From Sulfolobus sp. A20 (GTDB lineage: Archaea > Thermoproteota > Thermoprotei_A > Sulfolobales > Sulfolobaceae): a DNA stretch of 64,000 nt. The stretch covers positions 744,001-808,000 of the forward strand of contig NZ_CP017006.1 of NCBI RefSeq assembly GCF_001719125.1, in the 5' to 3' direction. Position 1 is the first letter of the stretch; every line of letters starts with the position of its first letter. Positions 55,514 to 59,788 of this stretch are shown one piece after another. The notes under the pieces are model-generated. The model had not been told where the DNA came from and searched no databases. It was given only the letters and a program-made list of their open reading frames with translations. Made by a program: the position numbers and the translations under genes.

Positions 55514-55915
55514 ATGTCAGAACAAAAGTTCCTCATAAAAAATATCTCCTCCCCCTCAGCTGAAGATAGAATAGTAGGCAAACACGTATTTGGAAACTTG
55601 TACGATATAGATGCAAGCAAACTAACTGATAAAGAGTTCCTAGAGAAATTAGTACTTGAAGCCGTGAAAATAGCTAATATGAAGCTAGTAGAGATTAAAA
55701 GTTGGTCATTCGGTGGGAAAAAGGGTGGAGTATCAGTTATAGCCCTAGTTGAAGAAAGCCACATAGCACTTCATACCTGGAACGAATACAATTATGCAAC
55801 ACTTGACGTCTATACTTGTGGTGAAGACAGTAATCCTCATTCGGCCTTCATGTACATAGTAAATGCCCTAAACCCAAAACGCTATCAAATGTTTTATGCT
55901 GATAGAAGTTCATAG
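55514..55915 (+). CDS. Pyruvoyl arginine decarboxylase (AdoMet decarboxylase-like proenzyme)
   Basis: Crenarchaeal polyamine-pathway enzyme that makes agmatine. The 133-residue proenzyme has the AdoMet decarboxylase pattern: self-cleavage between E81 and S82 ([16 protein letters not shown]) would create the pyruvoyl group on S82; H87 and C102 (DVYTCGED) sit at +5 and +20, exactly as the processing His and catalytic Cys of the family. AdoMetDC and ArgDC paralogues cannot be separated by motif alone; I favour ArgDC because the S. solfataricus ArgDC gene, as I recall it, also lies beside HMG-CoA synthase. Full length. Confidence 0.82.
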
Positions 55916-56017: not shown

Positions 56018-57067
56018 ATGTATTCTAGCATCATAGGTTGGGGTGCGTATATACCTAGATATAGAATAAAGGTATTAGAAATAGCTAAAATGTGGGGATA
56101 CGATGAAACTGTTGTTAAATCCTTGGGATTATCAGAAAAATCAGTTCCTAACTTTGATGAGGATTCGACAACCATTGCGTGGGAAGCTTCAATTAACGCA
56201 ATTAGAAGGGCTCAAGTGGATCCGTCTAAAATAAAGCTGGTTCTTTTCGGATCTGAATCGAAAGTTTATGCTGTTAAACCTACGTCAACAATACTAATAG
56301 ACGCATTAGGAATTTCAAATTACACTGCCACTGCTGATATGGAATTCGCTTGTAGAGGTGCGTCAGTAGGCTTAAGATTAGCCTCAAGTTTTGTTTTGAA
56401 TAATGATTCTTATGCCTTAGTAATTGGAGCTGATACAGCTCAATCTAATCCAGGAGATGTTTTAGAATTGAGTTCAGCTGCTGCAGGTGTAGCATTCGTT
56501 GTAGGAAAAGCTAGCAAAGAGAACTCTGCGGGGATAATAGAATATTCCTCTTCTTATACTTCTGATACCCCGGACTTTTGGCGTAGAGATGGTACGCCTT
56601 ATCCAGTACATGGTGAAGGATTTACAGGAGAACCAGCATACTTCAATCATATAATAGCTGCAGTAAACGATCTTCTTCAAAACAGTGGTCTAAAGGTCTC
56701 TGACTTTGATTATTTTATATTCCATCAACCTAATGGCAAGTTTCCAATTCAAGTAGCAAAGAAATTAGGAGTTCCACTAGAAAAAGTTAAACAAGGGTTA
56801 GTCTCGCCGTATGTAGGGAACCCTTACAATGCATCAGCTTTATTAGGATTAGCTAAGGTTTTAGACGTTGCCAAACCAGGTGAGAGAATATTAGTTGCTC
56901 CATTCGGAAGTGGTGCTGGCAGTGACGCCTTCAGTATTTTAGTTACAGAGGGTATCCTAGAGAAACAGAAGTTAGCTAAGAGTGTAGAATATTACATAAA
57001 CAACAAGAAATATTTGTCTTATGCAGAATATTCTAAGTACACTAACAAGATTAAGGTGTATGAATGA
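56018..57067 (+). CDS. Hydroxymethylglutaryl-CoA synthase
   Basis: Condenses acetyl-CoA with acetoacetyl-CoA to HMG-CoA, for isoprenoid lipids. The 349-residue archaeal-type enzyme begins [14 protein letters not shown], has the nucleophile C112 in [31 protein letters not shown] with the acid residue, and [11 protein letters not shown] with the catalytic His region, then [16 protein letters not shown]. The stop overlaps the start of the thiolase-like gene (ATGA). Archaeal homologues form a complex with thiolase and a DUF35 protein, the same order as here. Confidence 0.94.
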
Positions 57068-58152
57068 TGGATGTATATGCTAACGCAGCTTCAATAATCC
57101 CAATAGATAGGTATTACGAATATGATCTATATGATCTTGTAATTGAGTCCTTTAAGAATTTAGAACAGCAATATGATACATCGTCAAGAGGCATAGATCT
57201 AATAATAGTAGCCAATGCGTATTCTCAAAAATTAAATAGCAACTCCCTAATAGGTCCTAAAATTGCTAAAAAACTAGGAAAAACAGATATACCTTCTTTT
57301 AGAGTTGAGAATGGTGATGCTAGTGGTGGGACAGCATTACTAATGGGGTATTCTGCTATAAAGAGCGGATTAGCTAAATCAGTAATGATAATAGGTGTTG
57401 AGAAACAAACAGATTATCCGTCCAAATACTTTAATGAGGTTCTATCTACGTGTCTTGATGAACAAATGTACTATAATGGTGTTACCCCACATTCCATTGC
57501 AGCAATTATGATGAAGAAGTATATGAGTAAATACAACGTACCTAGGGAATATTTCGCAAATTGGGCTATAAAAATGCACCAAAACGCAGTAGAAAATCCA
57601 TTCGCTTATCTGAGATTTACAGTTGACTTAAACACAATATTAAGCTCACAAATTGTATCAGATCCTATAAGGCTATTTGATATAGGAGCTAGAGCCGATG
57701 GCGCTTCAATAGTAATATTATCAAGTGAAAAGACATCCGAATCTATCAAAATTAACAAGATAGAATCAACTCAATCTAGGTTAGACTTTTCTCCTTCCTT
57801 ACCATCCATTAAGACACTAAGGAGCAAAATTGAGATAAAAGATGTTAATAGAACTTTATTTGAAATACATGATTCATACAGTGTTATCGCCGCTATTATG
57901 TTAGAAGAGTTAGGTATAACTGAACCTGGAAAGTCATTATATAACTTGGATAGTCTTAACGTTAATCTATCTGGTGGGCTTAAAGCTAGAGGGTATCCGG
58001 GAGGTGCTTCTGCCGTATATCAACTATCAGAAGTTTATATGCAATTACTTGGTACCTTTAAAGGTAAGAAGATAACTGATGCGGAAAGAAGCATTATAAT
58101 ATCATCAGATGATTTAGGATTAGTTAGTTATGGAATCGAATTAACGAGGTGA
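57064..58152 (+). CDS. Thiolase-like protein of the HMG-CoA complex, catalytic Cys missing
   Basis: The 362-residue protein aligns along its length with archaeal acetoacetyl-CoA thiolases ([60 protein letters not shown]). Key residues differ: the nucleophile Cys of VEAACASG is Asp85 (GDASGG), the His of the GH-x-x-GATG motif is Tyr311, and the C-terminal Cys-Gly-Gly motif is not seen. His269 is kept. It is therefore unlikely to be a normal thiolase; it may be a structural partner of HMG-CoA synthase and DUF35. Shorter than typical thiolases (about 390). Overlaps both neighbours. Confidence 0.88.
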
Positions 58153-58157
58153 GAATA

Positions 58158-58559
58158 ATGAAAATAGCACCACCACAAGTTTGGAGAAACAAAAAATTCA
58201 TGTATAAATTGATAGCTAGTAAGTGCAGAAAATGTGGAAATATAGATTTTCCATACTCACCTTATTGTACAAAATGTGGAAATTCAGATGTAGAAAAGAC
58301 TGAACTAAGTGGAAAAGGTAAACTAGTAACCTTTACCGTATCATACCAAAGTAGGGAAGGTTTTGAGAAATCTTTACCCAGTATTATAGGTCTAATTAGG
58401 CTGGATGAGGGGGCTGAAATTATTGCTCCCATAGTTGATACAGAAATCGATAAATTAAAGGAGAATGCTAGAGTAGAAGCCACGTTAAGAAGAGTCTATA
58501 CGGATTCCTATAATGGACTAATACAATATGGGATCAAGTTTAGGGTAGTTGAGGAATGA
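58158..58559 (+). CDS. DUF35 OB-fold zinc protein of the HMG-CoA complex
   Basis: A 133-residue protein with a rubredoxin-like zinc ribbon ([20 protein letters not shown] in pieces, about residues 23-43) and an OB-fold ([36 protein letters not shown]). In methanogens a homologous protein bridges thiolase and HMG-CoA synthase and shares the CoA site, letting the intermediate pass between them. ATG 58158 with GAGGTGAGA upstream is preferred over GTG 58149. The stop overlaps hmgA (ATGA). Confidence 0.9.
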
Positions 58560-59788
58560 ACATTGATGAGGTAGTAGATAAGATAGTAAAGGGCGAAATT
58601 TCTTTTCATGAAGCTGATAATTTTTTGGAAGCTAACGCATCAATGGTTGCTAGAAGAATGGCATTAGAAAAAATCTTAGGAGTTCAACTACCATCGATAG
58701 GTTCTACAATCATAGATTATACTGAAGTAAAGAATAGAAATGCAGAGAATGTTATCGGAGCAATACAAATACCCTTAGGAATTGCAGGTCCAATAAAGGT
58801 TAATGGGGATTACGCGAGGGGAGACTTTTACGTACCTTTAGCTACTACTGAAGGCGCACTAATAGCTAGCGTTAATAGAGGTGCTAAGGCAGTATCATTA
58901 AGTGGAGGCGTTAAAACTAAAATATTAAAAGATGAGATGACTAGAGCTCCCTTATTTAAATTTGATTCGATCGAAGATATTCCTGAATTTATTGAATTTG
59001 TAGAAAAAAACTTTGACAATATGAAGGAAATAACTAGCAAAGTAACTTCTCATGGAAAACTGAAATCAATAACACCATTTGTTTTAGGTAATAACGTTTG
59101 GCTTAGGTTTTCATTTGAGACTGGGGACGCCATGGGAATGAACATGGCAACTCTAGCCTCAGAGGAGATTTGTAGATATATAGAAGATAACTTCCCTAAA
59201 GCTAAATGTTTAGCGGTAAGCGGAAATATGTGTAGTGATAAGAAGCAAACTAACGTAAACAGCCTATTTGGTCGTGGGAAAACAGTAGTTGCTGAAGCTA
59301 TAGTGAAAAAAGATGTTATAAATAACATATTACGTTCTGATGTTAACTTAATAAACGAGATAAATCTGAGGAAGAATTGGTTGGGCACTGCGAGAGCTGG
59401 ATCGTTAGCACAATATAACGCGCATTTTGCCAACATAATTGCTGCAATGTTTATTGCAACTGGTCAAGACTTAGCTCAAATAGTTGAGAGTAGTTCTGGT
59501 TATACATGGACTGAAGTAAGAGGAGAAGATCTCTACATATCAATTACCTTACCGTCATTAGAAGTAGGAACAGTAGGTGGTGGAACTAGATTACCTACCC
59601 AAAGAGAGGCATTAAGTATTATGGGAGTCTATGGAAGCGGAAATCCACCTGGATATAATGCCAAGAAATTCGCCGAAATTATTGCTGCTACAGTTCTTGC
59701 TGGTGAACTAAACCTCTTAACCGCATTAGCAAATAAAGAGTTAGGAAAAGCCCATAAGAAATTGGGTAGAGGAATGGTCTTGAAATAA
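58556..59788 (+). CDS. hmgA: Hydroxymethylglutaryl-CoA reductase
   Basis: Reduces HMG-CoA to mevalonate with NADPH, the committed step for archaeal lipids. The 410-residue class I enzyme shows the catalytic Glu in [18 protein letters not shown] motif [11 protein letters not shown], the Lys in the [15 protein letters not shown] region, the Asp in [13 protein letters not shown] and the His in [11 protein letters not shown] near the C terminus. ATG 58556 overlaps the DUF35 stop; last gene of the operon. A long gene-free stretch follows. Confidence 0.96.

Follow-up and report, generated by a model that had tools for sequence, protein, structure and literature searches.

The thiolase/HMG-CoA synthase (HMGCS) complex is a textbook example of how an unfavourable reaction is pulled forward when its product passes straight to the enzyme that follows. 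In a methanogen, according to PMC6392133, thiolase, a DUF35 protein and HMGCS form a physical assembly with a shared CoA site (PDB 6ESQ, cited there); the active cysteine of the thiolase subunit is Cys85, and the active residues of HMGCS are Cys114 and Glu82. A three-part architecture with one catalytically emptied thiolase-superfamily subunit is also found in the Friedel-Crafts acylase PhlABC/CsATase (PDB 5M3K, 9SKH). Its HMGCS-like PhlA lacks the HMGCS Cys and Glu and is very likely required for assembly, whereas the thiolase-like PhlC keeps Cys88; the C88S variant is inactive, and exchange of the cysteine for Ser or Ala abolishes activity (PMC6392133). Thiolase folds that lack the nucleophilic cysteine can be active, since Sal and Ltp2 are described as aldolases and TbSLP as having weak malonyl-CoA decarboxylation activity (PMC12329534). 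These proteins use the Tyr of a YD[CH] motif as catalytic base; Sal has Gly at the nucleophile position, and both Sal and Ltp2 have a DUF35 partner. Another Cys-less protein, the ST0096 type (PDB 4YZO), comes from Sulfolobales.

We analysed a 64,000-nucleotide stretch of the Sulfolobus sp. A20 genome (NZ_CP017006.1, positions 744,001 to 808,000), hereafter the window; the genome is a single contig of 2,688,317 bp. The genes are ordered HMGCS, thiolase, DUF35 protein (the putative scaffold of the complex) and HMG-CoA reductase (Table 1). The HMGCS has its catalytic Glu80, Cys112 and His236, and the thiolase gene encodes 362 amino acids from an ATG start, with no internal stop. An overlap of the thiolase gene with both neighbours had been proposed from the sequence alone: that with HMGCS (4 nt) stands, but the 4 nt shared with the DUF35 gene depend on a GTG start, an alternative ATG lying 9 nt downstream. 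Upstream of the operon, a 133-aa ORF (window 55514-55915) presumably encodes a protein related to S-adenosylmethionine decarboxylase/arginine decarboxylase, which it resembles by eye.

Table 1. The HMGCS operon and the thiolase active-site positions (numbered from the first nucleotide of the window).
Feature	Position	Strand	Basis
HMG-CoA synthase (archaeal type; HMGCS)	56018..57067	+	NCBIfam PRK04262, 3.7e-160
Thiolase-fold subunit without nucleophilic cysteine	57064..58152	+	Pfam Thiolase_N + Thiolase_C_1
Codon 85, GAT = Asp, nucleophile position	57316..57318	+	phmmer alignment, orthologue columns
Residues 142 (Pro) and 146 (Ala); Phe and Asn in Cys-bearing relatives	57487..57501	+	column counts
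HDS motif, His269-Asp270-Ser271	57868..57876	+	alignment columns
Codon 311, TAT = Tyr, replaces GH-motif His	57994..57996	+	alignment columns
DUF35 protein (zinc ribbon + OB fold)	58149..58559	+	Pfam zf-ChsH2, OB_ChsH2_C
HMG-CoA reductase (next mevalonate pathway step)	58556..59788	+	Pfam HMG-CoA_red, 4.6e-134

The sequence-only reading had placed Asp85 in the nucleophile slot by eye. This was borne out by phmmer, whose alignment of GDASGG with ACASG in the Methanothermococcus (6ESQ) and Pyrococcus (7YVY) thiolases contained no gap, so that Asp85 sits on Cys85. Its Tyr311 in place of the GH-motif His was equally sound, as His is present in 30/30 Cys-bearing relatives. A further argument, the missing C-terminal Cys, is not diagnostic: Cys-bearing HMGCS-linked thiolases also lack it and end in N-x-GG-x-G, mostly with HDA rather than HDC, so its absence is no loss. 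At positions 269-271, where the window protein reads HDS, most Cys-bearing relatives carry HDA or HDT, and SCP2-type and methanogen thiolases carry HDC. The AF2 model of the protein (pLDDT 95) had 6et9_C, the thiolase subunit of the HMGCS complex 6ET9, as its top PDB match in Foldseek (TMq 0.92), followed by 4YZO as the second PDB entry, which agrees with the proposal that the rest of the fold is conserved. The protein thus lacks both the nucleophilic Cys (CxS/CxG motif) and the GH-motif His of an acetoacetyl-CoA thiolase (EC 2.3.1.9), and it has the 6ET9-like fold and the adjacent HMGCS and DUF35 genes of a thiolase subunit of the archaeal complex. A decaying pseudogene was ruled out, as had been thought, by frames open in all orthologues read, conserved linkage and the confident fold. 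Nor is the gene silent: SSO0534 of S. solfataricus, by synteny the probable orthologue, is expressed, 147 of its peptides having been recorded in an aIF5A pull-down and 63 in the control (PMC6105217).

Compared with the methanogen complex, the locus shares the gene trio, the fold, intact HMGCS catalytic residues and the DUF35 partner; we infer a complex here. The difference lies in Asp85 and Tyr311, where the methanogen protein has Cys85 and the GH-motif His, so that the hand-over from thiolase to HMGCS reported for the methanogen cannot start in the same way at this locus. Unlike TbSLP, Sal and Ltp2, the Sulfolobus protein combines HDS with Asp and has HMGCS in its operon. An aldolase of the Sal/Ltp2 type was rejected because the catalytic Tyr of YD[CH][FY] is missing: the window protein has HDS, and His269 is present in 69/88 Cys-less relatives. 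The ST0096-type protein differs in having Ser85, keeping His311 and being unlinked to HMGCS. The window protein does not belong to this type either, since the genome has its own ST0096-type paralogue (L005), which the tree places apart from the clade holding the window protein. L005 (genome 1682036-1685674) and L224 both carry Ser for the catalytic Cys and keep the GH His; in the coordinate listing, the Ser-type paralogues of Fervidicoccus and Sulfolobus had no informative neighbours. A further locus (L008, genome 1571453-1575109) holds two tandem Cys-less thiolase-like ORFs (GGATG, DSLQG) with DUF35-like ORFs nearby.

Among 147 genomes of the order surveyed, a linked orthologue was found in 22 Sulfolobaceae. 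In the alignment at residues 85, 269 and 311, no Sulfolobaceae orthologue had Cys85; all 22 carry Asp85 at only 43-67% identity to the window protein, which argues against chance. Residue 311 is Tyr in 19 and His in three, all three from congeners of the window strain, and His269 is kept in 20/22. In 8/22 the residue directly after Asp85 is deleted (GD-NGG), a change that would be hard to reconcile with a functional nucleophile elbow.

To follow the loss further, relatives were collected from the order, the phylum and named genomes, and flanking regions were read for HMGCS and DUF35 neighbours. Thinning at 80% identity left a non-redundant set of 118 HMGCS-linked thiolases. Position 85 is Cys in 30, Asp in 37, Glu in 32, Gly in 14, Gln in 2, and Leu, Thr or Ala in one each; an acid thus occupies it in 69/88 Cys-less sequences. 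The Cys-less state prevails in the HMGCS-linked thiolases of the Thermoproteota sampled, among genomes that we take to be of Ignicoccus, Pyrolobus, Aeropyrum, Acidilobus and Pyrobaculum type, and is found separately in some Chloroflexota; MAGs labelled Bathyarchaeota, Odinarchaeia and Thermococci also carry it. HMGCS adjoins nearly all Cys-less thiolases read, the genes often overlapping, and linkage to DUF35 is likewise kept; Vulcanisaeta-like genomes differ, with Cys-less thiolase and DUF35 both located away from HMGCS. In family f2, a Cys-less (Glu) HMGCS-linked thiolase (L031-L034, L046, L047, L050) coexists with a Cys-thiolase linked to its own DUF35 elsewhere (L039-L043, L045, L048, L049). 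In Desulfurococcaceae- and Ignisphaera-type genomes (f10: L203-L206; f3: L055 with L201), a Cys-bearing thiolase is encoded away from HMGCS, and in f10 a DUF35 gene adjoins HMGCS with no thiolase beside it.

Since the methanogen, Pyrococcus and SCP2-type outgroups carry Cys, we take Cys as the likely ancestral state. Parsimony required at least 6 changes among the HMGCS-linked rows and 8 on a thinner set, one of them inside Chloroflexota, where the nearest tree rows of the nine Cys-less sequences include Cys-bearing Chloroflexota; the trees were quick searches with long branches, so the exact numbers are uncertain. Forcing all Cys-less rows into one clade cost 335 log units (p-AU 2e-7), which, together with parsimony, rejects a single ancient loss.

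The HMGCS next to Cys-less thiolases stayed intact, the catalytic columns Glu80/Cys112/His236 being E/C/H in 74/74 Cys-less loci checked. The thiolases themselves evolved faster relative to HMGCS, at about twice the rate of Cys-bearing ones: the thiolase/HMGCS distance ratio had a median per family of 1.04-1.44 where Cys was kept and of 1.5-2.6 in 12/13 Cys-less families, the remaining two-genome family giving 0.99 (MWU p 0.004). Within family f8 the ratio was 1.18 with Cys and 2.29 without (a single pair). DUF35 was not accelerated alongside (p 0.38). Across all 88 Cys-less sequences, Gly111, Lys114, His172, Pro201, Asp212, Gly213, Gly304, Gly305, Lys307 and Gly310 never vary, and Asp270 is found in 87/88. 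The combination E/H/H at 85/269/311 occurs in 25/88, and His311 is replaced by Tyr or Asn in 36/88. The Asp/Glu state at position 85 underwent at least 8 supported changes, although its codons lie at least two base changes from those of Cys; the Gly of 14 sequences is a possible stepping stone. A84G, F142P, N146A, A271S and H311N or H311Y recur as companion changes. In Chloroflexota, the Cys-bearing rows (n=2) have F142, N146, A271 and H311, and the Cys-less rows (n=9) have A146 in 9/9, N311 in 8/9, P142 in 5/9 and S271 in 5/9. N146 changed together with Cys in about 5/5 independent pairs, for which p 0.06 is the limit attainable with that number. As the acid and its companion changes recur, we would not regard a neutral relic as settled.

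In 20 genomes whose HMGCS-linked form is Cys-less, we looked for further thiolases. A pattern search recovered a Cys motif in 16/20; the other four were L169 (f2), with no thiolase frame in the stretch read, and three Fervidicoccaceae-type genomes. Outside Fervidicoccaceae, another Cys-motif thiolase was present in 17/17 Cys-less genomes whose additional thiolase was read; G010 is the one beyond the 16 and has a second thiolase with Cys in the tree. The genome that holds the window has at least five others, which fits the earlier suggestion of a pseudoenzyme fed by another thiolase. What goes against that suggestion is the Fervidicoccaceae (loci read: L081, L159, L160, L161, L178), which appear to be without any. 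In G008 (closed, 1,319,206 bp), G019 and G029 (near-complete), the Thiolase_N/Thiolase_C profiles found no Cys-thiolase; their matches were limited to HMGCS, the protein of the operon (position 85 Gln or Gly where read) and a third thiolase-like protein of ST0096 type, with Ser85 where read (G008, G019; also G040). HMG-CoA reductase and HMGCS are present in all three. A canonical thiolase match does occur in G064 and G070, two less complete genomes that share this family code. The missing Cys-thiolase of Fervidicoccaceae is the strongest unexplained point.

Acetoacetyl-CoA is also among the intermediates of the 4-hydroxybutyrate cycle. A close match to 4-hydroxybutyryl-CoA dehydratase was found in 0/24 genomes of the Thermoproteota sample with a Cys-bearing HMGCS-linked thiolase and in about 31 Cys-less ones. 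As a simple cause of Cys loss the cycle is only half supported: it could promote the loss without being necessary for it, because many Cys-less heterotrophs, which we take to be of Aeropyrum, Acidilobus and Fervidicoccus type, have no close dehydratase match. Archaeal HMGCS was absent from the eight Nitrososphaeria searched that have close dehydratase matches.

We favour, with moderate confidence, the explanation that the Cys-less thiolase is a pseudo-subunit that stays on as a component of the HMGCS/DUF35 complex, where it would contribute to a shared CoA site, while acetoacetyl-CoA is supplied from outside. Judging from the alignments, the subunit annotated as making the first membrane-lipid intermediate probably no longer performs that reaction, because an acid replaces the essential Cys, the loss occurred at least six times and always alongside an intact HMGCS. 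An acyl-cysteine intermediate would no longer be formed, so that no acetoacetyl-CoA would arise by thiolase chemistry. The subunit would be retained because archaeal HMGCS would work as a thiolase-DUF35-HMGCS assembly, the CoA site being shared between subunits; even emptied, it would still give architecture and part of that site, the sole chemistry being done by HMGCS. Acetoacetyl-CoA could be provided by separate Cys-thiolases; in autotrophs it could instead be drawn from the 4-hydroxybutyrate cycle, of which it is an intermediate. With such external supply, a thiolase beside HMGCS would mainly split acetoacetyl-CoA back to acetyl-CoA, and loss of the nucleophile would therefore be tolerated or favoured, repeatedly. 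PhlABC offers, by analogy, a direct structural precedent for an emptied subunit, in mirror image: there the HMGCS-like partner is empty and the thiolase-like one keeps its Cys, the reverse of Sulfolobus.

Several observations count against a pseudo-subunit and are also where its main rival, a repurposed carboxylate active site, draws strength. A structural relic alone should not gain Asp/Glu repeatedly, nor should N146A, F142P, A271S and A84G recur, Chloroflexota included; His269 and His311 are both retained in many Cys-less proteins, and Fervidicoccaceae have HMGCS and HMG-CoA reductase and no detected Cys-thiolase. According to the rival, the carboxylate at 85, with Asp270, His269 and Ser271, would perform a Cys-independent acyl-CoA reaction (enolisation, decarboxylation or hydrolysis) or gate acetoacetyl-CoA into HMGCS, the subunit being an enzyme or a gate and no relic. 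The near-complete conservation of Gly304-Gly305, Lys307, Gly310, Asp212-Gly213, His172 and Asp270 is consistent with this, as are the active Cys-less folds of Sal, Ltp2 and TbSLP (PMC12329534). We nonetheless hold it to be possible but rather unlikely, given the doubled substitution rate, the indel next to the acid in eight Sulfolobaceae, and the variation at His311 (Tyr/Asn) and at position 85 (Gly in 14/88), owing to which no fixed catalytic set is visible. Slightly less probable is its widest form, in which HMGCS-operon thiolases of archaea and bacteria repeatedly became distinct carboxylate-site subunits of the mevalonate entry complex. With acetyl-, malonyl- or acetoacetyl-CoA as substrate, such a subunit would do or gate a step that needs no Cys, and in Fervidicoccaceae it could be the sole route to acetoacetyl-CoA.

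It is improbable that the protein is free-standing, with an unrelated job, and merely stays in the operon, there being no HMGCS complex in Thermoproteota. The Vulcanisaeta-like arrangement would agree with this, as would the recovery of SSO0534 with aIF5A, though it was in the control too (PMC6105217); against it are the HMGCS and DUF35 linkage in nearly all other Cys-less loci and the nearest fold, that of a complex subunit. That the protein is still an acetoacetyl-CoA thiolase, with Asp85 or another residue replacing Cys, is hardly credible despite its operon position, the invariant glycine and lysine motifs and the Fervidicoccaceae, since PhlC is dead after Cys-to-Ser or Cys-to-Ala exchange (PMC6392133), His311 is gone as well in most Sulfolobaceae, the nucleophile elbow carries an indel and the other genomes read have a Cys-motif thiolase elsewhere.

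The survey extends the sequence-only reading from one gene to most sampled Thermoproteota and, separately, Chloroflexota, with recurring Asp/Glu and companion changes and the Fervidicoccaceae as the exception. If most Thermoproteota do use an unreactive thiolase, thiolase-HMGCS coupling would fail for a major archaeal phylum, and the acetoacetyl-CoA thiolase annotations of their HMGCS-linked genes would be wrong. Msed_1647, probably an orthologue of the window thiolase, appears in PMC7078158 as one of the candidate beta-ketothiolases for the CO2-fixation cycle. The entry into archaeal lipid synthesis would then be tied to central carbon flux. With at least six parallel losses, in which archaea and bacteria alike show the same acid and companion changes, the family also offers a natural experiment on how an enzyme subunit turns into a pseudoenzyme.
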